From Nitrospirota bacterium (GTDB taxonomy: Bacteria > Nitrospirota > Thermodesulfovibrionia > Thermodesulfovibrionales > UBA6898): a stretch of DNA of 35,718 nucleotides. This document shows positions 16,208 through 28,939 of this stretch, piece by piece. The DNA lies in contig JAKAKQ010000363.1 of assembly GCA_021813425.1 (NCBI GenBank), forward strand, positions 1 through 35,718, read 5' to 3'. Positions within the stretch are counted from its first letter, which is position 1; every line of letters starts with the position of its first letter. The notes beneath the pieces were generated by a model. The model had not been told where the DNA came from. It did not search any database and was given only the letters and a program-made list of their open reading frames with translations. A program made the translations under genes and the position numbers.

Positions 16208-16480
16208 TCAACCCGGTTTGTCGGTATATTTCAATCTCACATATCTGTTTTCAGTCCATCGCCATATAGAAACATCATAGTAGCCTGACTTATTTACAGT
16301 CTCAGGCTCTAACCCATGATCACTTGCAATCTCATCAAAGACTTGCTTGGCATCTTTGAAAGAACCAAAATCATTGATCTCAACTACCCTGCCACCCTCC
16401 GCCGCCACTATCAAAAACTTCGCATCGCAAGGCTTATACATTATCCAACTTGCTTTCCTATCAATTACCTTATTGCTCAT
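16208..16480 (-). CDS. Hypothetical protein
   Basis: 90-aa ORF on the same strand as the RM operon; no family recognised. Confidence 0.6.
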   Translation of the reverse strand: MSNKVIDRKASWIMYKPCDAKFLIVAAEGGRVVEINDFGSFKDAKQVFDEIASDHGLEPETVNKSGYYDVSIWRWTENRYVRLKYTDKPG

Positions 16481-16581: not shown

Positions 16582-17844
16582 TCATTCTGGTAAATGAAAC
16601 AACATCACAGACAGCTTCACCTCTCTGTTTCTGTCTTCGTTGATATGAAACCTGTAGTGAAACCATCCTTCTTCCTGTTCAGAGACAAAGCCCAAACAAT
16701 TATCATGTTCAAGAGTTGTCTTTTTTACTGTTTCCAGCACAGATGAAAATTCTTTGTTTTTTACGAACACAACAACCGCTGCCTTCGAATCTCTCCATGT
16801 TAAATAACTAAGAAGCTGACTTATAGTATCAAAATACGCTTTCTTGCCATGCCAAAACTTCAGCTCGGCAATAAACACATTCTTCCCTTCGTGTCGGAGT
16901 AAAATGTCAGTTTTGCCTGCTTTGTTAAAAGTTTCTCCTGTTGCAGATCCTTCAAAGTTGGGCTCAAGGATTAGTAGCATATGATCCCGAAGATGTTCTT
17001 CCTCTTTTCCTGCATACGTACTGGGTAATCTTTCAAATTGTCTGCCAACATCGTGAATTATTTTCAATATTTGTTGATAAATTGAGTCATCCAGTGTAGG
17101 TTCAGGTATATACCCCTTCTCTGCCACTTGTGGTTTTGTTTTTGTCGGAATGACTTTGGTTCTCTTGGCAGGGATAGAAAACGTTTCTGAAGTATTGGTG
17201 GACTTCCGAATAGGTACGCCTAAAGTCGCCATTAAGTCGTTTTTCTTTAAAAGTTGTTGTTTTCTTGCGTCGAACGCTTGCGATGCAATGGACTCAATTG
17301 ATCTGTTAAAGCTATTAAGATCGTTAGTCAGATATTGATTTTGACTTATCAAGCTATTGATAGTTTGTTCAGACTCTTGTTTGATGTGTTCAGGCTCTAA
17401 ATTAAAATTTATAATCTCAAAGCAAATGCAGTTATCTTCTACTGTTATCCTTGGGGCGTATGATGAAAATGTACTTGCTCTCACTTTTAAAAGTTGCGGA
17501 TCACCAGTGAACGGTAGATGAAATTTTATTATGTCTCGTGCATATGATTTTCCAGAATCCACCCAATATGTATTTGGATGTCTTTCCGCAGGTATTTGAG
17601 CCTCATAGGTAGACACACTAAGCTGCTCTCTCTGCAATTCAATAGGCTGCATTGTGTATTCTGAAACAAGATGTTCAATAAATTCTGTCTTATTAACATT
17701 TAGGATGTAATTGTCTGGTTGGGAGTTTATATCAGAAACGACTTGCGCTTTTTGATTCTCTATCAATGAAAAACCATCGTACTCTGAAAATGCATGGAAC
17801 TCAGCCCCGTATCTTGCTCTCATTTTTGATTCCTTTTCCAACAA
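16582..17844 (-). CDS. Uncharacterised protein with C-terminal PD-(D/E)XK-like nuclease domain
   Basis: FNKAGKTDILLRHEGKNVFIAELKFWHGKKAYFDTISQLLSYL gives a D-X(n)-ExK core; directly downstream of the RM fusion gene. Confidence 0.65.
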   Translation of the reverse strand: MLEKESKMRARYGAEFHAFSEYDGFSLIENQKAQVVSDINSQPDNYILNVNKTEFIEHLVSEYTMQPIELQREQLSVSTYEAQIPAERHPNTYWVDSGKSYARDIIKFHLPFTGDPQLLKVRASTFSSYAPRITVEDNCICFEIINFNLEPEHIKQESEQTINSLISQNQYLTNDLNSFNRSIESIASQAFDARKQQLLKKNDLMATLGVPIRKSTNTSETFSIPAKRTKVIPTKTKPQVAEKGYIPEPTLDDSIYQQILKIIHDVGRQFERLPSTYAGKEEEHLRDHMLLILEPNFEGSATGETFNKAGKTDILLRHEGKNVFIAELKFWHGKKAYFDTISQLLSYLTWRDSKAAVVVFVKNKEFSSVLETVKKTTLEHDNCLGFVSEQEEGWFHYRFHINEDRNREVKLSVMLFHLPE

Positions 17845-17879
17845 CCTAAATATGTCTTCTGCAATGTTTTAATGGCTCA

Positions 17880-17927
17880 CTACTTTTCCTTCCTCACCCC
17901 TATAAGTTTCCTGATCATCGTATTCAT
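17880..17927 (-). other. 15-codon ORF ending in GVRKEK
   Basis: MNTMIRKLIGVRKEK*, 2 nt after the upstream stop; C-terminus matches the 57-aa protein at 20580-20753. Confidence 0.3.
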
Positions 17928-17929
17928 AC

Positions 17930-20500
17930 CTAAATCTCTTCTATAGCTTCCACAGCGTCCTTCTTATCAAATGCGATTCCTTCTACTTCGAATGCGATTT
18001 CTTTGGCGCGGTTACGAAGCTGAACACGCGTCTCAATAACACGGCGAGTCTCTTCGGCGATTTTTTCCCTAATCTTTGCATCCTTCGGTATCGGCAGGAC
18101 GACTTCGAACAACCGTTTGCCCAAAGTATCGATGATGTCCTGGGTGAACTGCTTGGCCCTGATCTGGCGCTTCACGATGAGGGCGTTCAAACATGCAAAG
18201 AGAAGCCAGGGATCAATAGCCTTCTTATCCAATACTCTGACCCGATAGATATGACTCTGGAACAGCATCGGAACATCGCTTTTCGTAACTATGGCTGTCG
18301 TACCGATCAAATACGTGCCGTCGCGCACCATCAAAACATCGCCGGGCTCGACATCTATCTTCCCTTGATACTCATCATAAACATCCTGGCTGACGCCATG
18401 CTTAAAATCAGCCTTGATTTCCCAATTAGAAAAATCTGATGTCCTGATGAACGGAATGGTCCCCGTTCCGTAGGCCATCTTCCCGATCTCAATGCCGGTA
18501 TCTACGGATACTTTCTTCTCCTTGACAAGATCACCCACCGTCACCAACGCATGAGTCTTCTTAAGTCGCTGTAAATCGCGTGTAATCTCAGGGTTATAAT
18601 ATTTCGGGACTAATATGCGGTTCTGAATCTTATCGGAACGCAAGACAAACCCCAGATGATCGATGACCTTGCGGCCTTCCTGCATAATCTGCCTATACCG
18701 CTCCGTGATCACCGGCACATCGTCAAGCAACTCCATTTCTCCTTGTGCATTTTTCCTCAAGGTCGGATTGCCGCGCGAATCATGGCCGCACCACTTTGCC
18801 TCGGCCATGAAGATATCGTATGGCTCTGTTGTTTTCTCTTTGGCCAAAAGCAAGGTACAAACCTTTGTGTGTGTGCCTCCCTTGCCACTTGTCTTGAACA
18901 ATGATTCGGGCATCGTAATGACAGCGATCAACCGTGTATTTTCGAGAATATACGATATAACGTGTTCATAAGACGGATTGCCGAGGATGCTTTCGGGCAG
19001 AACGATTCCCATACGACCACCCGGTTTCAACAGCTGAAGGCAGCGTTCGAGAAATAATAGCTGTGGCGGCTGGTCTTCATGAATAATAGACGTTTTTTCA
19101 AACCGGCCGGTTGACTTATCCCGATTCCACTTATAGCCGAGATCATACTGGGACAAGATGGCATCTCCCTTCACAACAATCTTGTTACCGAAAGGTGGAT
19201 TGGTCATCACGATATCGAATACACCGTGCCTTGCTTTCTCCCTCAGTCCGTGTGGCCACTCTTCCGGCCTGCTCAGAGAATTCGCGCAGAACACGCCGCC
19301 GCGTCCATCGCCCACAAGCGCCATGTATGCCTTGCAGACCTTGGCAAGGAACGCGTCTTTATCGATGCCGCGAAAACAATCAGTCGCAACCTCGACCTCA
19401 CGTTTAAAAAGCTGTTTCTCCGTCCAGCCCTTGCGCTTGGTTTGACTTCTAAGTTGCTTCCACACGTACTCCAGCGCGCCGATGAGAAAACCGCCTGAAC
19501 CACAGGCCGGATCAATAATCTTTTCGCCGGGCTTGGGATCAAGGATCTCGACCATCATCTTGACAACATTACGCGGCGTGAAGAACTGACCCTCTGACCC
19601 GCGGAGGGCAGGGCCGATGAACACTTCGAATGCGTCCCCAATGGCATCGCGGTCGGCATCCATAACGCAGTAGTTCTGAAGTTCTCCGACAACATAGCAA
19701 AGACTATCGACATCAAGACTGATCGTGTCATTCTTGTCAAAGACATCTTCATACGTTGCCGTCTTTACGCGCTCAAAAAGCTCAAGAATGCGTTCGCGCA
19801 CTGTTTCGGGTTTCTCTCCGACGCCTGCCCGAAATGTCACGGTTTTATCCTGGTCGGTCTCCTGCTCGTCGAGAATCTTGCAGAACAGGATGTTGATTAT
19901 TTCCTGTGCCAACGCTTCGTCACGGGTGATACCCGTCGTCATGCCGGCAAGGTGATTGCGCAAATCACGGAACACCGCCTTAAGGTTTGATGGTTTTTTC
20001 AGGTCTTTGCGGGTATAGAGGCCGATGTCCTCAATGCGCTGACCATGACGGGGAATGTTGGGAAGAGGTGTATATGTGCGCGATCCGTCCTTCTGATGGA
20101 TTTTTCGTAAATACTTATGCTCATCACCGTTGAACCAGACGCCGACTTCGGCTGCGGACATATCCATGTAAAGTTTGAGCTGTTCTTCACCGTCCTTACA
20201 GTACCTTTTCTTGCACTCGGCTACCATAAACAGATCACTATCTGTTTTTTTCGCCGAATAGAAGACTGCTATATCGACAGGGTAGGATTTTTCTACATCC
20301 GACGGACGCTTCTTGACCCGGTACTGAGGACGCGTCTGGATATGCGACTTCGGATAACCATAATCTTCAACCAGGCGTTGTGAAAGCACCTGGACAGCCT
20401 CGACCTCCTCGGGTGTGGCCTTGACCGGTTCACCACTGATAAAATCAAGTAAATAACCAGCTTTTAATTCTGCTTCCAATGACTTCTTTTTTTTAGCCAT
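17930..20500 (-). CDS. Single-chain restriction-modification-like protein: HSDR_N-type nuclease domain, N6-adenine methylase, specificity region
   Basis: N-terminal PVDIAVF...FMVAECKKR (D...ExK); IIDPACGSGGFLIGALEYVW; DIVMTNPPFGNK; C-terminal TRD-like GTGTIPFIRTSDFSNWEIK...VEPGDVLMVRDGT. Confidence 0.88.
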   Translation of the reverse strand: MAKKKKSLEAELKAGYLLDFISGEPVKATPEEVEAVQVLSQRLVEDYGYPKSHIQTRPQYRVKKRPSDVEKSYPVDIAVFYSAKKTDSDLFMVAECKKRYCKDGEEQLKLYMDMSAAEVGVWFNGDEHKYLRKIHQKDGSRTYTPLPNIPRHGQRIEDIGLYTRKDLKKPSNLKAVFRDLRNHLAGMTTGITRDEALAQEIINILFCKILDEQETDQDKTVTFRAGVGEKPETVRERILELFERVKTATYEDVFDKNDTISLDVDSLCYVVGELQNYCVMDADRDAIGDAFEVFIGPALRGSEGQFFTPRNVVKMMVEILDPKPGEKIIDPACGSGGFLIGALEYVWKQLRSQTKRKGWTEKQLFKREVEVATDCFRGIDKDAFLAKVCKAYMALVGDGRGGVFCANSLSRPEEWPHGLREKARHGVFDIVMTNPPFGNKIVVKGDAILSQYDLGYKWNRDKSTGRFEKTSIIHEDQPPQLLFLERCLQLLKPGGRMGIVLPESILGNPSYEHVISYILENTRLIAVITMPESLFKTSGKGGTHTKVCTLLLAKEKTTEPYDIFMAEAKWCGHDSRGNPTLRKNAQGEMELLDDVPVITERYRQIMQEGRKVIDHLGFVLRSDKIQNRILVPKYYNPEITRDLQRLKKTHALVTVGDLVKEKKVSVDTGIEIGKMAYGTGTIPFIRTSDFSNWEIKADFKHGVSQDVYDEYQGKIDVEPGDVLMVRDGTYLIGTTAIVTKSDVPMLFQSHIYRVRVLDKKAIDPWLLFACLNALIVKRQIRAKQFTQDIIDTLGKRLFEVVLPIPKDAKIREKIAEETRRVIETRVQLRNRAKEIAFEVEGIAFDKKDAVEAIEEI

Positions 20501-20579
20501 ATTTCAGCCTATATCCAACGAGTTTCATAGCTCACTAAATCCATTTGCAGTTAGTTTTTCAGCAATAATTGCATATGAG

Positions 20580-20753
20580 CTATTTTTCCTTCCTGACCCC
20601 TTTAAACGGCTCTTTATCCGCCTTCTGATCAATAAACAGTTTAGTATCAGTGTCTATTTTTGTCCAGCGCTGATTGTGGGGATTGTATACCTGTGTGCGG
20701 TCTTTTACTGCTCCATGCCTGTGATTGTCTCCATACGGTGCATTCTTAGCCAT
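20580..20753 (-). CDS. 57-aa conserved small protein in RM operon (absent from ORF track)
   Basis: Own translation: MAKNAPYGDNHRHGAVKDRTQVYNPHNQRWTKIDTDTKLFIDQKADKEPFKGVRKEK*; ATG 2 nt after the lexA-like stop. Confidence 0.72.
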   Translation of the reverse strand: MAKNAPYGDNHRHGAVKDRTQVYNPHNQRWTKIDTDTKLFIDQKADKEPFKGVRKEK

Positions 20754-20755
20754 AT

Positions 20756-21382
20756 TTAAACCTCCATCTTCGGAATTGTTGTTACAGCCACTCCTTGAAC
20801 CTGAAAATTTTCAGTCAGGATAATCGGCTTATGATTTTTATTGCTCGACTTCGGCATTAAAACAACGCAATTCTTATTATGCTGAAATTCTTTCACAGTC
20901 GCTTCATTATCAATCAGAGCTACAACTATATCGCCATTCTTTGCTGCTGACTGCTGGCGGACAAGTATTAAATCTCCATCATTGATTCCGGCTTTGTTCA
21001 TGGAATCCCCTTTAGCTCTGAGCAGAAAGTATTTAAATCCAGGTTTTGCAAGAGAAACAGACACAGGGATATACCCTTCAATATTTTCCTGGGCTAAGAT
21101 AGGCACGCCACAGGTTGCCATCCCGACTAAAGGAATATCGACTGTGCGGGCATGAACCGAATCAGATTCAACATCTTTGATTAACTGCAAATCCCCATCC
21201 GGACGTTTTCTTAAAATACCTTTCTGGATTAATTCCGCAATAATTAAAGAAGCCGATCTGGGGGACTTATATCCAAGCTCTGCCATCAGTTCACGTACAG
21301 ATGGGGTTTTGCCTTTATGCATAAGCTGATTTCGGACATAACGAAGTGCATCTGCTTGTCTTTGACTTAGTTGTGTCTTCAT
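20756..21382 (-). CDS. LexA/S24-type repressor-protease
   Basis: MKTQLSQRQADALRYVRNQL...TPSVRELMAELGYKSPRSASLIIAEL; MATCGVPI cleavage region; AKGDSM (Ser); ATVKEF (Lys). Start chosen at internal Met (21382). Confidence 0.88.
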   Translation of the reverse strand: MKTQLSQRQADALRYVRNQLMHKGKTPSVRELMAELGYKSPRSASLIIAELIQKGILRKRPDGDLQLIKDVESDSVHARTVDIPLVGMATCGVPILAQENIEGYIPVSVSLAKPGFKYFLLRAKGDSMNKAGINDGDLILVRQQSAAKNGDIVVALIDNEATVKEFQHNKNCVVLMPKSSNKNHKPIILTENFQVQGVAVTTIPKMEV

Positions 21383-21385
21383 AGT

Positions 21386-21410
21386 TATACAAAGTGTATA
21401 ATAGTGTATA
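21386..21410. promoter_or_regulatory. Candidate operator of the LexA-like gene
   Basis: Perfect inverted repeat TATACA-AAG-TGTATA (21386-21400) plus a third half-site TGTATA (21405-21410), just upstream of the ATG. Confidence 0.55.
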
Positions 21411-21429
21411 ATAAAAGTCAAGCGGAAAA

Positions 21430-21516
21430 TTAAAGGTTGCCGCAGAAGCATTGATGAATTATCAACTCGATAAAGACAGGGCTGCTGCCGTCGAAGTCCC
21501 TAAGATTTTTTTGCAT
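21430..21516 (-). pseudogene. Truncated PIN-domain (VapC-like) toxin remnant
   Basis: MQKNLRDFDGSSPVFIELIIHQCFCGNL* overlaps the AbrB stop; reads like a PIN N-terminus that ends where the first catalytic Asp is expected. Confidence 0.5.
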
Positions 21517-21733
21517 AGAGATCTTCCAGTTCCTTCATTGAAAGTTTGCCCTTGGCTATCCCTCTGACTTTATCAGTATAGGTTTTCCTGATAGGTACAA
21601 CCACAATGCCCTCCGGCGTCATTTGCACGTCAACCTTATCACCTGTGTGGATATTTGCCTTCTCTCTTATTTCTTTAGGTATTACAATCTGCCCCTTCGC
21701 AAGGACCTTTGCCATCGGCATAAAAACCTCCAT
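21500..21733 (-). CDS. AbrB/MazE-type SpoVT-fold antitoxin
   Basis: MAKVLAKGQIVIPKEIREKANIHTGDKVDVQMTPEGIVVVPIRK. Confidence 0.92.
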   Translation of the reverse strand: MEVFMPMAKVLAKGQIVIPKEIREKANIHTGDKVDVQMTPEGIVVVPIRKTYTDKVRGIAKGKLSMKELEDLYAKKS

Positions 21734-21897: not shown

Positions 21898-22398
21898 ATG
21901 AGACCTCATGGAAACCCACAGGAATTGCAAAAACGACGCTTTCGGGCAATCTCCCTTCTGAAAGAGGGATACCAGCCAGTTGAAGTTGCCCAAATAGTTG
22001 GAGTTGACCGTCGCAGTGTAAGGCGATGGAATGCCGCCTACAAAAAAGATGGTCAAAAAGGCATAGAAGCTAACCCGCCCTCTGGCCGTCCATCGAAACT
22101 TGACGTAAGAAATAAGAAGAAACTCGAAAAGGCGCTGTTTAAGGGCGCTATGTTTGCAGGATTCAACACCGACCTTTGGACATGCCCGCGGGTCGCCAGA
22201 CTCATTGAAAAGCTTTTCGGCGTTCGTTATCATGCACACCATGTAAGCAAACTCCTGCACTCGCTTGGTTGGACACCGCAAAAACCCCAGCGTATAGCCA
22301 AAGAGCGTGATGAGAAAGAGATCAGACGCTGGATAAAAGAGGAATGGCCTCGCATTAAAAAAAAGCAGCGCGGCTTAAAGCCTTTATTGTCTTCATAG
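21898..22398 (+). CDS. IS630 transposase, N-terminal ORF (HTH)
   Basis: HTH (EVAQIVGVDRRSVRRWNAAYKKDG) and winged-helix region, ends after an A8 run. Confidence 0.9.
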   Translation: MRPHGNPQELQKRRFRAISLLKEGYQPVEVAQIVGVDRRSVRRWNAAYKKDGQKGIEANPPSGRPSKLDVRNKKKLEKALFKGAMFAGFNTDLWTCPRVARLIEKLFGVRYHAHHVSKLLHSLGWTPQKPQRIAKERDEKEIRRWIKEEWPRIKKKQRGLKPLLSS

Positions 22399-22409
22399 AC
22401 GAAAGCGGC

Positions 22410-22928
22410 TTGCTTATGGCTCCTGTCGTTCGTAGGACATGGGCGCTGCGTGGCAAAACACCCGTCTTGTTTCAACGAACTCGCTCTCACAAAAAAGTTT
22501 CGGCAATAGCAGCTTTGTGTGTCTCTCCGGAGAGAAAACATGTAAGGCTTTATTTCAGGCTTCTTGCGGATAATAACTTCAATGCCTCTCATGTTCGGAC
22601 ATTTCTTAACCAGTTGAACCGGCAACTCAAAGCCCCTGCCCTTATCGTATGGGATCGCTTCTTGCCGCATAGAGCTAATAAAGTTCATGAGTTTATTGGC
22701 AGGACGCCATATCTTCACGTACGGTTCTTTCCACCTTATGCTCCAGAACTTAATCCCACAGAATACCTTTGGGGTTGGCTTAAACAAAAGCCGTTGGCTA
22801 ACTTCACGCCGGACAATTTGGTAGAGTTGGCCGATAATGCAAGAAAGGGAAGCAGACGTGTTCAACGCAGTCAAAATCTTCTTCGCGCTTTCGTCAATCA
22901 TAGTCCCCTTCCTTTACGCCTTAAATAG
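22410..22928 (+). CDS. IS630 transposase, C-terminal ORF (DDE)
   Basis: VIVDRF-like VWDRFLPHRA and PPYAPELNPTEYLWGWLK; the upstream part of the same frame reads FIVFIDESG, supplying the first Asp. Confidence 0.9.
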   Translation: MLMAPVVRRTWALRGKTPVLFQRTRSHKKVSAIAALCVSPERKHVRLYFRLLADNNFNASHVRTFLNQLNRQLKAPALIVWDRFLPHRANKVHEFIGRTPYLHVRFFPPYAPELNPTEYLWGWLKQKPLANFTPDNLVELADNARKGSRRVQRSQNLLRAFVNHSPLPLRLK

Positions 22929-23635: not shown

Positions 23636-24535
23636 TTGATGAAGACTGCAGGTATCTTCCCGGGACAGGGCTCGGAATATCCGGGAATGCTCGAATGTAT
23701 AAGAGGATACGAGCTGACAAAATATGTTTTTGGCCGGATCGACGGGATCAGCGGAAAGGACATTTTCAGGATCACGATTGAAGGCCCGGAGGAAAAACTG
23801 AGAGAACCTCTTATTGCCCAGCTTTCCGTATTCGGCACGAGCGTTTGCTACTGGCATCTTCTGAACAATCAGATGGATTTCTACGGCCTTGCAGGACACA
23901 GCCTTGGTTTCTATTCTGCATTATATGCAGCAGGCTCCATTGCACTCGATGATTGCATAAGGATAATAATAAAAGTCCAGGAAGCCATCGACAGCATAAT
24001 GGAAAACAGATCAGGCATGATGGCATCGATTACCGGGCTGAAAACAGAAGAGATGAAAAGCCTCTGCAGTGATACAGCCGGAGTATTTTTTTCGAATATA
24101 AACTCTGCATCCCAGATCGTCATTTCAGGCAGCGCATCCGGGGTAAAGGATGCCTGCGAGAGGGCCCTGCAGAAAGGCGCTTTGTCTGTAAAAGAGCTTC
24201 CGATACCCTATCCCCTCCACAGCCCGATGATGGACGGAATCGAGGGAATTCTGAGACCGTTTATAAACCAGATAGAGATAAAAAAACCGTCAATCCCTGT
24301 TATAAGCCATCTTGACAATACTATTCTCGATCAAAAAGGCATTTCGGAAGTTCTTTGCATTCAGCTTTCAAAAAAGATCATGTGGAGGGATACGATAAAG
24401 TGCTTTGCGAGCACGGGAATAAACAGATTTGTCGAGGTCGGTCCGTCTGACGTGCTGTCGAAACTGGTCAGATGGATCGAAAGGGATGCTGAATCCCTGA
24501 GGGCTGAAGAGGTGCTGGATTGTCAGGGTGCGTAG
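23636..24535 (+). CDS. FabD-like acyl-carrier-protein acyltransferase
   Basis: FPGQGSEYPGM, GHSLGFYSA (Ser), PLHSPMM (His), FVEVGPSDVL. Confidence 0.92.
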   Translation: MMKTAGIFPGQGSEYPGMLECIRGYELTKYVFGRIDGISGKDIFRITIEGPEEKLREPLIAQLSVFGTSVCYWHLLNNQMDFYGLAGHSLGFYSALYAAGSIALDDCIRIIIKVQEAIDSIMENRSGMMASITGLKTEEMKSLCSDTAGVFFSNINSASQIVISGSASGVKDACERALQKGALSVKELPIPYPLHSPMMDGIEGILRPFINQIEIKKPSIPVISHLDNTILDQKGISEVLCIQLSKKIMWRDTIKCFASTGINRFVEVGPSDVLSKLVRWIERDAESLRAEEVLDCQGA

Positions 24536-25254
24536 CAATAGTCACAGGCGGTACTAAAGGCATAGGTAAGGCAATATCCCGTTCGTTCATAAAAAAGGGA
24601 ATAAAGGTATTCATGGTCTTCTCCTCTGATGAAAAGGCAGCCGAATCCGCCATGACCGAACTGAACAGCATCGATAACATTGCGGATGTAATAAAGGCAG
24701 ACGTCTCTGACCGGAATCAGGTGAATGCCGTGATCGAAAGTGTTGTAAACAAGACCGGAAGGCTCGATATCCTTGTCAATAATGCAGGGATAATCAGGGA
24801 CGGGCTGCTAATGCTTATGCCTGATATCAACTGGCACAGGGTCATGGATGTAAACCTTAATGGAGTTTATTACTGTTCAAAGGCCGTTCTAAGGCCGATG
24901 ATAGGGAACCGGTGGGGAAGGATCATCAATATCATTTCACCGAGTGCACTGCTTGGCAGGGCGGGACAGACAAACTATTCAGCATCGAAGGGAGGCGTCC
25001 TGAGTTTCACCAGATCGCTTGCAAGGGAGGTTGCACGGTTCGGCATAACAGTCAATGCTGTTTCTCCCGGCGTGATAGAAACGGAACTCACCGGTTATAT
25101 GGATGAAAAGGTCAGGGGTGAATTTCTCTCGATGATCCCTGTCGGCAGGTTTGGGACGCCTGAGGAAGTATCCAATGCTGTCTCGTTCCTTGCCTCTGAG
25201 GAGGCAGGTTATATTACGGGAGAATATATATCCGTAGACGGAGGGCTTACATAG
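24520..25254 (+). CDS. 3-oxoacyl-ACP reductase (FabG-like SDR)
   Basis: TGGTKGIGKAI, NNAGI, NYSASKGG, YITGEYISVDGGLT; TTG start. Confidence 0.95.
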   Translation: MSGCVAIVTGGTKGIGKAISRSFIKKGIKVFMVFSSDEKAAESAMTELNSIDNIADVIKADVSDRNQVNAVIESVVNKTGRLDILVNNAGIIRDGLLMLMPDINWHRVMDVNLNGVYYCSKAVLRPMIGNRWGRIINIISPSALLGRAGQTNYSASKGGVLSFTRSLAREVARFGITVNAVSPGVIETELTGYMDEKVRGEFLSMIPVGRFGTPEEVSNAVSFLASEEAGYITGEYISVDGGLT

Positions 25255-25514
25255 TGGAAAAAGAAAACCTGGTTGAAGAACTGAAGGCGCTCATTGTAAA
25301 GAACCTGAAACTTGAGGATGTCCTGCCCGGGGACATAGACCCGGCTGCCCCCCTTTTTGGAAGCGGCCTCGGTCTTGACTCAATCGATGCCCTTGAACTG
25401 GTTGTGGGACTTGAAAAGACTTACGGCATAAGGATTCCTGATGAAGACGTCGGCAAGGAGGCATTCGCATCTGTAAACGCCCTTACTGATTATATTCTCA
25501 GGAACAAAAAATAA
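25254..25514 (+). CDS. Acyl carrier protein
   Basis: GLGLDSIDALELVVGLEKTYGI with 4'-phosphopantetheine Ser; GTG start. Confidence 0.94.
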   Translation: MEKENLVEELKALIVKNLKLEDVLPGDIDPAAPLFGSGLGLDSIDALELVVGLEKTYGIRIPDEDVGKEAFASVNALTDYILRNKK

Positions 25515-25520
25515 CAGACC

Positions 25521-25910
25521 ATGAAACCCTTTGAGCATCTTCCTCACAGGTATCCTTTTATAATGATCGACACAGCAGAGATTATCGAGGAAGGCAGACA
25601 CGCAAAGGGAACAAAACAGATAACCGTCAACGACAGGATCGTGCTTCCTGACGGTAAAATGCCGGACGTATATATAATCGAGGCGATGGCCCAAATTTCC
25701 GGCATAGCAAGCGGAAAAAAGGGAGGCTCTGTATTTGCCGCAATAAATAACTTAACGTTCAGTGGAACAGCGAATGCAGGTGATATACTCGATGTCGAGA
25801 GCATACTTGAAAGGAATATCGGCAGCCTTTATATCTTCAGCTGCAAGGCGTCTGTTGCAGCCGGAACAATTGCAGAAGGGGAGATAATACTTCACTTTAA
25901 TGCAGAATAA
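25521..25910 (+). CDS. Hot-dog fold 3-hydroxyacyl-ACP dehydratase (FabZ/ApeP-like)
   Basis: LPHRYPFIMIDTAEII ... YIIEAMAQISG; lacks the canonical GHFP loop motif. Confidence 0.85.
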   Translation: MKPFEHLPHRYPFIMIDTAEIIEEGRHAKGTKQITVNDRIVLPDGKMPDVYIIEAMAQISGIASGKKGGSVFAAINNLTFSGTANAGDILDVESILERNIGSLYIFSCKASVAAGTIAEGEIILHFNAE

Positions 25911-28263
25911 GCTTCCGCGCATAAGGACCTTTACAAAAAGACATCCCCTCCTGACTATAGCCTTATCTGCATTCATCATTCTTGCCTCGATAATGATCAT
26001 CTTAAGGACAAAGTTTGACACTGACATAACCCGTCTTATACCGCTCCATGCTGAAAAGACCTCCCTCTATTTCAGCATAATGGAAAACTTCGGAGGGATC
26101 GAAAAGGCCTACATCATATATTCTTCTGACCATATTATGGACCATATTACGGTCATCGATAAAATCGGCAGTGAGATATCCGCATCAGGGCTTGTAAACA
26201 ATGTTCAATGGAAGATCTCAGATGAGGCAAAGGCTTTCCTGAAAGATGTCTATTCAAAAAAGGCGCCCCTTCTTCTTTCAGAAAAGGAGATGCAGGACTT
26301 TTTCGACAGGCTTTCCCCTGAAGGCATGTCGAGGGAGTTAAACAGGACAAAACAGAGACTCGCCCTGCCGGGAAGTCCGGAAATCCTTGCACGGATAGAT
26401 CCCCTGAACTTTTCGGCTATCTTCTCTTCACACATGAAGCTCTCTGACGTATCCTTTGACCTTGGAACAGGTTATTTTTTATCACCTGACAGGAAAAAGA
26501 TCATAATGATACTCACGCCTAAAGGTTCCCCGCGAGATATTACGTTTTCCGGAAAGTTCATCAATAATATAGAAAACATACTCCGGAAATACAGGAGCGA
26601 CAGGCTCAGGGCTGAAGTAACGGGAAGCCACGCCATCACCCTCCATGAGGCATCTGCAATGAAGAAAGAAATCGTTAACAATGTCCTCATGTCTTTTATA
26701 AGCGTCGTGCTGATATTCCTTATCTTCTTCAGATCATTAAGAGGCCTGCTATACGTCATGCTGCCTGTTATATTCTCGATAATCGCTACAATGGGGATAA
26801 TACTGATCTTTACAGGCTCGCTCTCTGAGGTCACAGGCGCATTTGCCGGTCTTATTGTTGGCCTGGGGATAGACCTCGGCATCGTTCTGTATGTTCGACA
26901 TCTTATAAATTCGGAAAACTTTACAGACCAGACCGAATGCATGGATAAAAGCATATCAGGAGTCTACAGGGGAATAACAACAGGGGTAGTGACAACGGCC
27001 CTGACCTTTTTCCCCATGATATTTTCATCATTCAGGGGGGTAGGGGAACTCGGACTACTTACAGGCACAGGCATGCTCATATGCTGGGCATTCCTCTTCG
27101 GGCTGGTTTCGCTCGTGATTAAACCATCCTCAGGGAAGTTTATCGGGATAAAAATGTTACGGGAAATTTCGATGTTCGCATATGCAAAACCATCTGTGAT
27201 TATTTTCCTGACGGCTGTTTTAACTCTTCTGTTTGCATTTTTTATCCCCGCTATTCACGTCACAGGAGATATAACAAAACTCGGCACAGACAATAATCGC
27301 GCGAGAAAGGCCCTCGAAGAACTCAAGGAGGTTTATATAAAAGACTACGGCGTCTTTATAACTGATAGTGCAGACTCTTCTGAATCGGCGCTGGCCAGGA
27401 GTCTTGAGATAAAAGAGTCTGTTTCAGGTGAATTAGATAACATATCAACAGCAGGTGACATTCTTCCACCGACCGAAAGACAGGAGAAAAATCTCAGGAT
27501 GCTGGCCTCTTTGGACTCCCGAAGGATCCTGAAGGACTTTAACAAAAAAGCCCTGGATGCCGGGTTCAATCCGTCAGCCTTCGAGCATTTCTCTCACATC
27601 TTGAAAGAGATGCTCGAAAACAGGGAGCCGCTGACGCTTAAAGACCTCGGGCCTGTTCAGGAGGCTGTCAACAGGCTTTTGATAAAAGAGGACAACGGAT
27701 GGAGGATAATAGTGACAGGCAATCTGAAAGAAAATGCCTCTTTGAATTCCCTGAATCGCCTGAAATATACCGGACCTTCCTTTATAAAACAGGAACTCCT
27801 TGATATCCTGAGGAAGGATGCCATCCTCATCAGCATAATCGGGCTCATTCTTGTTAATATCATCCTCTATATCGATTTTAAAAACTTTTTTTATGTCTTT
27901 CTCTGCCAGATACCCGTATTTATCAGCATAATATGGGTCCTCGGAATCATGGGTCTTTCAGGAATAAGCCTTAATTTCATGAACGCGGTCGTATTTGTGA
28001 TGCTGATCGGGATAGGGACCGACTACACCGTACACCTTCTGCACCGCTATCTTTCGGACAGGGACATCGGCGCCACTTTCCTTCAGACAGGGAAGGCTGT
28101 TCTGGTCGCCGGGCTGACCACAATTGCAGGGTTCGGCTCAATAGGTTTTTCATCTTACAGGGGGCTTGCCACAATGGGGCAGGTTGCAGTGATGGGGACT
28201 GCATTCTGTGTTATTCTGTCATTATGCCTTATACCGTCATTGTTGAGGTTGTATGAGAAATAA
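25900..28263 (+). CDS. MMPL/RND superfamily lipid exporter
   Basis: 787 aa, two TM blocks with internal symmetry (GLIVGLGIDLGIVLYVRH; VFVMLIGIGTDYTVHLLHRY). Confidence 0.92.
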   Translation: MQNKLPRIRTFTKRHPLLTIALSAFIILASIMIILRTKFDTDITRLIPLHAEKTSLYFSIMENFGGIEKAYIIYSSDHIMDHITVIDKIGSEISASGLVNNVQWKISDEAKAFLKDVYSKKAPLLLSEKEMQDFFDRLSPEGMSRELNRTKQRLALPGSPEILARIDPLNFSAIFSSHMKLSDVSFDLGTGYFLSPDRKKIIMILTPKGSPRDITFSGKFINNIENILRKYRSDRLRAEVTGSHAITLHEASAMKKEIVNNVLMSFISVVLIFLIFFRSLRGLLYVMLPVIFSIIATMGIILIFTGSLSEVTGAFAGLIVGLGIDLGIVLYVRHLINSENFTDQTECMDKSISGVYRGITTGVVTTALTFFPMIFSSFRGVGELGLLTGTGMLICWAFLFGLVSLVIKPSSGKFIGIKMLREISMFAYAKPSVIIFLTAVLTLLFAFFIPAIHVTGDITKLGTDNNRARKALEELKEVYIKDYGVFITDSADSSESALARSLEIKESVSGELDNISTAGDILPPTERQEKNLRMLASLDSRRILKDFNKKALDAGFNPSAFEHFSHILKEMLENREPLTLKDLGPVQEAVNRLLIKEDNGWRIIVTGNLKENASLNSLNRLKYTGPSFIKQELLDILRKDAILISIIGLILVNIILYIDFKNFFYVFLCQIPVFISIIWVLGIMGLSGISLNFMNAVVFVMLIGIGTDYTVHLLHRYLSDRDIGATFLQTGKAVLVAGLTTIAGFGSIGFSSYRGLATMGQVAVMGTAFCVILSLCLIPSLLRLYEK

Positions 28264-28939
28264 GGTCTGCTGTCTTATTCCGGCATTTAATGAGGCCCGC
28301 ATGATCTCAAAGGTAGTGACCGGGGCTAAAAAATATATTGATAATATTATTGTTGTTGACGATGGCTCGGAAGACCCCACACATACATTGGCGCAGGGAG
28401 CAGGCGCATTCGTGATAAGACACAACCGAAACCTCGGCAAGGGGATGGCCTTGAGGACCGGGTTTTCATATGCGCTTCAGAACGGGTTTGATGCAGTAAT
28501 AACACTCGATGCAGACGGCCAGCATGACCCGGCAGAGATCGGGAATTTCCTGTCTGAACTAAACAGTAATCCGGGTGATATAATTATAGGCACAAGGTTC
28601 TGGAAAAAAACCCCGATACCGATGTACAGATACATACCGAACCGTATAGGGATTTTCTGCATATCAAAGGCGGCAGGCTGCAGGATTGATGATACTCAAT
28701 CCGGCTTCCGCCTCTATAAAAGAGAGGTGCTCAATAGTGTAAGACTTGAGACAGAAGGCTTTGAGACAGAGACAGAGATCCTGATAAAGGCAGGGAAGAT
28801 GGGGTTCAGGATATGCAGCCTTCCTGTATCAGCCGTTTATCATGATGATTACAAAACACATTTCAGGCCTGTGAGGGATTTTTACAGGATAAGCATACTT
28901 GTTTTAAAGCTGAGTTTTTTCAGGGGAAAAGATAATTAA
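28253..28939 (+). CDS. Family 2 glycosyltransferase
   Basis: CLIPAFNEARMI...IIVVDDGSEDPT...ITLDADGQHDP. Confidence 0.94.
   Translation: MRNKVCCLIPAFNEARMISKVVTGAKKYIDNIIVVDDGSEDPTHTLAQGAGAFVIRHNRNLGKGMALRTGFSYALQNGFDAVITLDADGQHDPAEIGNFLSELNSNPGDIIIGTRFWKKTPIPMYRYIPNRIGIFCISKAAGCRIDDTQSGFRLYKREVLNSVRLETEGFETETEILIKAGKMGFRICSLPVSAVYHDDYKTHFRPVRDFYRISILVLKLSFFRGKDN

Follow-up and report, generated by a model that had tools for sequence, protein, structure and literature searches.

Restriction-modification (R-M) systems are usually regarded as constitutive, and for some of them alleviation of restriction by DNA damage is known. For LexA, an autorepression that is relieved by RecA-stimulated cleavage has been established. 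DNA-damage-responsive control of immune operons has been described for CapW/BrxR, CapH+CapP and CapK+CapS (PMC13373217, PMC9122588, PMC9122601). In a 2026 paper, CapW/BrxR and CapH+CapP are given as two families of damage-responsive immune regulators, to which CapK+CapS is added as the third, and the word LexA is absent (PMC13373217). The C proteins of type II R-M are covered in a 2025 review, which makes no mention of LexA (PMC12707154). No paper on LexA-controlled R-M was found in the open-access literature that was searched, and the novelty of such control is provisional.

The locus studied here, from a Nitrospirota genome, is headed by a LexA-type repressor (LexA2) and can be compared with each of these systems. 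As with the Cap-type controllers, a repressor of damage-responsive type is encoded next to immune operons of various kinds or heads them. However, LexA2 is a single LexA-type self-cleaving protein rather than a WYL protein, a repressor-protease pair or a kinase pair, and the payloads seen behind it are almost all R-M. Like the C proteins of type II R-M (PMC12707154), it is encoded by a regulator gene heading R-M operons, with autoregulation likely, but it has the LexA fold with a peptidase domain, uses a different operator and serves many unrelated R-M types. With LexA of the SOS response it shares the fold, the cleavage site, the Ser/Lys dyad and the ATAC half-sites; it differs in being an extra copy in a separate clade, with a Cys-Gly bond, a different operator spacing and a predicted regulon of one operon. 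LexA2 is best read as a fourth kind of damage-responsive immune controller beside CapW/BrxR, CapH+CapP and CapK+CapS.

Gene order and the single-chain enzyme

The window, that is, the whole stretch of 35,718 nucleotides that was analysed, carries on its minus strand an operon in the order promoter, lexA2, PDC-S38, a nuclease-methyltransferase-specificity (nuclease-M-S) gene, PDC-S54 and orf90. Four of these genes had been put forward in the original prediction as a candidate defence operon, and their ORFs were confirmed on this strand where it had placed them; orf90, the promoter/operator at 21383–21422 and a second, canonical LexA on contig C395 were absent from it. The lexA2 gene (20756–21382) encodes 208 aa. 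Its ORF opens at 21451 (20756–21451), and the true start is most likely the ATG at 21382, because the alignment of relatives puts the conserved promoter directly before that codon. The stop of lexA2 ends at 20756 and the ATG of the next gene (57 aa, 20580–20753) is at 20753, which leaves the 2-nt gap previously reported. It is followed by the gene of the 856-aa enzyme (17930–20500) and that of the 420-aa protein (16582–17844), whose ORF opens with TTG at 17844 and which, judging from homologues, probably starts at the ATG at 17823; orf90, encoding 90 aa, lies at 16208–16480. Upstream of lexA2, an AbrB/MazE-like gene (21500–21733) stands between it and an IS630-type transposase of two ORFs (winged HTH and DDE_3, 21898–22928), which is about 0.5 kb away. 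Elsewhere in the window, at 23636–28936, genes for an acyltransferase, a ketoreductase, an acyl carrier protein, a 129-aa protein, an MMPL exporter and a glycosyltransferase possibly form a lipid or polyketide-type biosynthetic cluster.

The 856-aa protein contains the three parts that had been predicted: an HSDR_N_2 nuclease domain (residues 37–150, 20051–20392, 4e-11), an N6_Mtase domain (residues 283–575, 18776–19654, 4e-39) and a specificity region with one recognition domain (residues 678–823, 18032–18469), the last resting on a Methylase_S match of 4e-4, slightly under the Pfam cut-off, together with a match to the MAD5 model. The methyltransferase motifs DPACGSGGF and NPPF begin at residues 330 and 434, respectively. 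In an alignment of 14 sequences, the others being 43–86% identical to the window protein, residues D76, E95, K97, Q107 and Y111 of the nuclease domain are invariant. A lack of catalytic residues in the HSDR_N domain had been named as grounds for dropping the prediction; such a lack is not seen, because the PD-(D/E)XK residues, D76, E95 and K97 among them, are invariant in the 14 homologues. That is to say, endonuclease, methyltransferase and recognition parts are fused in one polypeptide with an intact nuclease and no translocase, as in type IIG enzymes, with the recognition match just below the cut-off. As the prediction also held, there is no helicase or translocase in the window; the one HsdR of the genome is on another contig (C206), and no conserved HsdR-sized neighbour was found among 34 related loci from other genomes. 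Several of these 34 loci are split into M plus S, and the S protein matches the recognition region twice. Thus, the earlier assignment to a type IIG-like single chain stands, and the protein is, from its domains and residues, a type IIG-like enzyme predicted to cut and methylate.

The closest solved relative of the 856-aa protein is the type IIB enzyme BsaXI, both by sequence and by fold. The AlphaFold model has a mean pLDDT of 76, and the TM-scores are only 0.34–0.38, which is attributed to domain placement. BsaXI, BcgI and other type IIB/IIG enzymes likewise combine nuclease, N6-MTase and specificity parts without HsdR; unlike these, the 856-aa protein has a fused specificity region with one recognition domain. 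Stretches resembling MAD2 and MAD5 of the MADS system were also recognised in it, but MADS was rejected as an identification, since the scores are 408 bits against a cut-off of 720 for MAD2 and 42 against 400 for MAD5, and no partner genes were identified.

The 420-aa protein matches the PADLOC candidate PDC-S54 over its full length (2.2e-156, 404/410 positions) and has no Pfam family. Its PD-(D/E)XK core consists of GKTDIL (16900–16917) and AELKFW (16852–16869), and the D...ExK core is invariant in 7 sequences, which bears out the prediction of a second ExK nuclease protein. In other genomes PDC-S54 lies between the specificity and restriction genes of a type I system (L132), in the same order in L133, as judged by gene size and an M match, and behind a 72% relative of LexA2 (L134). 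Towards the distal end of several LexA2 cassettes orf90 is met again, with matches in L030, L126, L189, L190 and L197, and also as fragments; a DNA block of 216–243 bp is shared.

The LexA2 repressor, its promoter and its operator

LexA2 scores above the TIGR00498 cut-off (162 vs 111 bits) and keeps the cleavage site and the Ser/Lys dyad, so that a self-cleaving type of repressor does stand on top of the operon, as had been proposed. The predicted scissile bond is Cys-Gly (C91-G92) instead of Ala-Gly, the catalytic residues are S127 and K164, and the cleavage site and dyad are conserved in 15/15 aligned LexA2 copies. RecA is present in the genome. LexA2 is not the host LexA but an extra copy, because the genome has the canonical LexA on C395, with 219 bits against 162. 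In the 396 Nitrospirota genomes searched, the nearest 14 copies of LexA2 have 82–96% amino acid identity; copies 84–89% identical to the query LexA2 occur across at least six families, and the housekeeping LexA proteins are about 35–45% identical to it. Between the two groups fall one relative of 72% (L134) and one of 58% (L198). In the tree, LexA2 and its 58% relative are separate from the host LexA sequences (98/98). LexA2 has spread horizontally. Two copies per genome occur in at least G262 (L191, L202) and G304 (L128, L192), and the two copies of G304 head different R-M payloads. Several further copies are located at contig ends, as repeats are.

The promoter of lexA2 consists of CTTGACT, a 17-nt spacer and a −10 box TACACT. 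The mRNA of the operon is probably leaderless, because the ATG follows the −10 box by only about 12 nt. A putative operator, ATACA-N5-ATACA-N3-TGTAT (21387–21409), overlaps the −10 box. The promoter/operator of the cassette (21383–21422, minus strand) is conserved in 14/14 close LexA2 copies, which have in common the operator pattern and a TTGACA-like TTGACT separated by about 17 nt from TACA(C/G)T. In these copies the ATG comes a few nucleotides after the expected transcription start, with an insert in L192 that separates promoter and ATG. The 72% relative keeps ATACA-N3-TGTAT, elsewhere in its promoter.

In this genome the operator occurs as a single site without mismatch, at the repressor's own gene, and the next best site has 3 mismatches. 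In the 396 genomes, every site with at most one mismatch is located ahead of LexA2 or at a contig end that cuts into LexA2 or falls shortly upstream of it; G201 and G280, each with a site but no full LexA2, were considered as exceptions, and their sites turned out to be at contig ends. Sites with two mismatches are about as frequent as in the reversed-pattern control, except for one at an L134-type copy. The host SOS box ACTATAC-N4-GTATAGT is found in perfect form only before the host lexA and before one two-gene unit, the second protein of which begins, by eye, like DNA polymerase IV (putative dinB). The two operators have ATAC half-sites in common at different spacing; the specificities of LexA2 and host LexA are likely separate, and cross-talk is possible because the half-sites are shared. 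As far as sequence tells, LexA2 does not control the host SOS regulon.

A recurrent head with varied payloads

The exact set of four genes was not found elsewhere, so the quartet is not the recurring neighbourhood that had been expected. The candidate defence operon is supported as such, two of its genes being PADLOC phage-defence candidates (PDC-S38 and PDC-S54), but not as a fixed unit of four genes. What recurs is a block of about 690 bp with promoter/operator and lexA2, often with PDC-S38. The trio of LexA2, the 57-aa protein and nuclease-M-S is found in two further genomes, fused in L007 and split into M+S in L030. In this survey, whose in-depth part covered the one phylum Nitrospirota (396 genomes), 14/14 close LexA2 copies precede R-M genes, with eight endonuclease types, and thus adjoin varied immune operons as the Cap-type controllers do. 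The payloads are nuclease-M-S or M+S (window, L007, L030), HNH with two MTases (L117, L194, L195), MTase with TdeIII (L128, L189 and L193, the last cut by the locus end), MTase with MvaI/BcnI (L190), N4-MTase with an HNH gene identified by eye (L191), MTase with GIY-YIG (L196), MTase with EcoO109I (L197) and D12 MTases with AlwI (L192). R-M genes of the same panel were found at 0/16 housekeeping-LexA control loci (Fisher p about 1e-8 against 14/14), a control that is somewhat lenient because the panel was drawn almost wholly from LexA2 loci. Behind the 72% relative there is only PDC-S54, and behind the 58% relative there are genes without a recognisable R-M system. In addition, LexA-like genes 45% (L199:9926–12411) and 38% (L203:9781–12306) identical to LexA2 stand directly before a Dcm-type MTase and a nuclease gene, candidate or BpuJI-type; the association with R-M may therefore be wider than the LexA2 clade.

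Pairwise DNA homology around lexA2 runs from about −41 to −53 to about +628 to +650, or to about +795 to +806 in pairs with PDC-S38 in common, and mostly ends abruptly on both sides. The exceptions are pairs sharing payloads, and L117/L191, which also share upstream DNA. Relics of other payloads are left behind the present ones: the last 86 aa of an L117-type MTase behind AlwI (L192), the last 76 aa of a GIY-YIG enzyme behind M+S (L030), AlwI pieces (L190), and MTase and MvaI pieces (L007). Immediately behind lexA2, the opening codons of PDC-S38 are still present in L192, L193 and L194. Edges and relics together are the pattern expected from repeated replacement of payloads behind a fixed head, as read from sequence. 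The block common to all cassettes is only promoter and lexA2 (with or without PDC-S38), and it contains no shared integrase or phage gene.

The 57-aa protein matches the PADLOC candidate PDC-S38 over its full length (1.7e-29, 57/57 positions). PDC-S38 is not confined to LexA2: in plasmids and related genomes, with regulator proximity judged case by case and without a background count, it is found beside CapH/CapP ahead of ubiquitin-like operons (L111, L116, L121, L123), beside a WYL regulator (L148, L150), flanked by an HTH regulator and CBASS-type genes (L146) and ahead of Pycsar genes (L120). Its neighbours thus include regulators of several kinds for which a response to damage is known or expected, a link not found in the open-access literature searched. 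PDC-S38 is an early gene in many defence operons, and where these are regulated it may serve them as a general accessory. In L126 (1754–3400, minus strand) it forms an in-frame N-terminal fusion with a DNA methyltransferase, which has an MvaI/BcnI-type gene and orf90 as neighbours. The slot after LexA2 can also hold alternatives: a protein of 97 aa, judged by eye to be GIY-YIG-like (L189, L191, L196), or a DUF2188 protein; in L134 and L198 the slot codes for 80–93 aa. Neither PDC-S38 nor PDC-S54 has a match in viral contigs. RptR (PMC12255303) was considered for the 57-aa protein and rejected, being a protein of 79 aa with a solved structure, to which the 57-aa protein has no such PDB match; an AlphaFold model of PDC-S38, built from three sequences with a pLDDT of 56 and giving a hairpin only, was set aside.

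Proposed control of the cassette and its meaning

The operon is probably an R-M cassette under a dedicated, RecA-responsive and horizontally moving LexA-type controller with exchangeable payloads. A LexA2 dimer would bind the operator over the −10 box and repress the operon, its own gene included. RecA filaments formed on phage or damaged DNA would stimulate cleavage at C91-G92, and such derepression on DNA damage would fit the intact cleavage residues. The result would be more of the bifunctional enzyme, which would methylate host sites and cut unmodified DNA, together with the accessory nuclease PDC-S54, until newly made LexA2 shuts the operon down. Recombination between LexA2 blocks and downstream sequence would replace payloads and place different specificities under the same switch. 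Several points weigh against this explanation: repression of a methyltransferase brings the risk of undermethylated DNA on induction, so that leaky or internal expression would be needed, and the internal promoter matches within the operon are near background. Cross-talk with host LexA is possible through the ATAC half-sites, no recognisable R-M system follows the LexA relatives of 72% (L134) and 58% (L198), the in-depth search covered one phylum, and the panel of the housekeeping control came almost wholly from LexA2 loci.

The main rival is that LexA2 acts like a C protein, as an autoregulated R-M controller that sets expression level and timing on entry into a new cell or silences incoming cassettes with the same operator, its self-cleavage being ancestral and not the main input in vivo. 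The autorepressor layout with the operator over −10, the strict pairing of LexA2 with R-M and the two genomes at least (G262, G304) in which two operator-LexA2 copies would cross-regulate all agree with it, and under it no restriction enzyme would have to be induced in a damaged cell. We nevertheless hold it to be rather unlikely, since the conservation of the cleavage site and dyad in 15/15 copies is unexpected if cleavage is dispensable, and since C proteins, being small HTH proteins, lack a peptidase domain (PMC12707154). It is very unlikely that LexA2 is an ordinary second SOS repressor of the host regulon with incidental R-M neighbours in a defence island: it does pass the LexA equivalog cut-off, and R-M genes are common in these genomes, but there is one operator in the genome, the contrast of 14/14 with 0/16 loci is not that of incidental neighbours, and the block in common stops where the gene does. 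LexA2 could instead be a lysogeny-type repressor belonging to a prophage or integrative element whose cargo is the R-M genes; in keeping with this, repressors of the S24 kind are typically found in prophages, the high identity between families implies horizontal movement, and an IS630-type transposase is nearby. This is the least probable of the readings, because viral contigs give only relatives of 37–49% identity, mostly partial, the best plasmid match is about 42%, and the common block lacks an integrase or phage gene.

Returning to the switch that RecA would release, there is a reasonable likelihood that a LexA-type SOS repressor has been turned into a mobile R-M controller, a block of about 690 bp behind which unrelated payloads are swapped. 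In that case a fourth family would be added to the damage-responsive immune controllers, and, as far as the open-access literature searched shows, these would be the first LexA-controlled R-M systems. PDC-S38 is linked in this way to three different regulator types, and the operator sequence offers a search handle for further R-M and defence genes. In relatives the head stands before at least seven further, unrelated restriction systems, which suggests that these bacteria repeatedly exchange their anti-virus enzymes while one SOS-type switch stays in front. If this is true, some bacteria would raise restriction on infection or damage through a portable SOS-type switch, and new specificities would be gained by payload swap while the control unit is kept.
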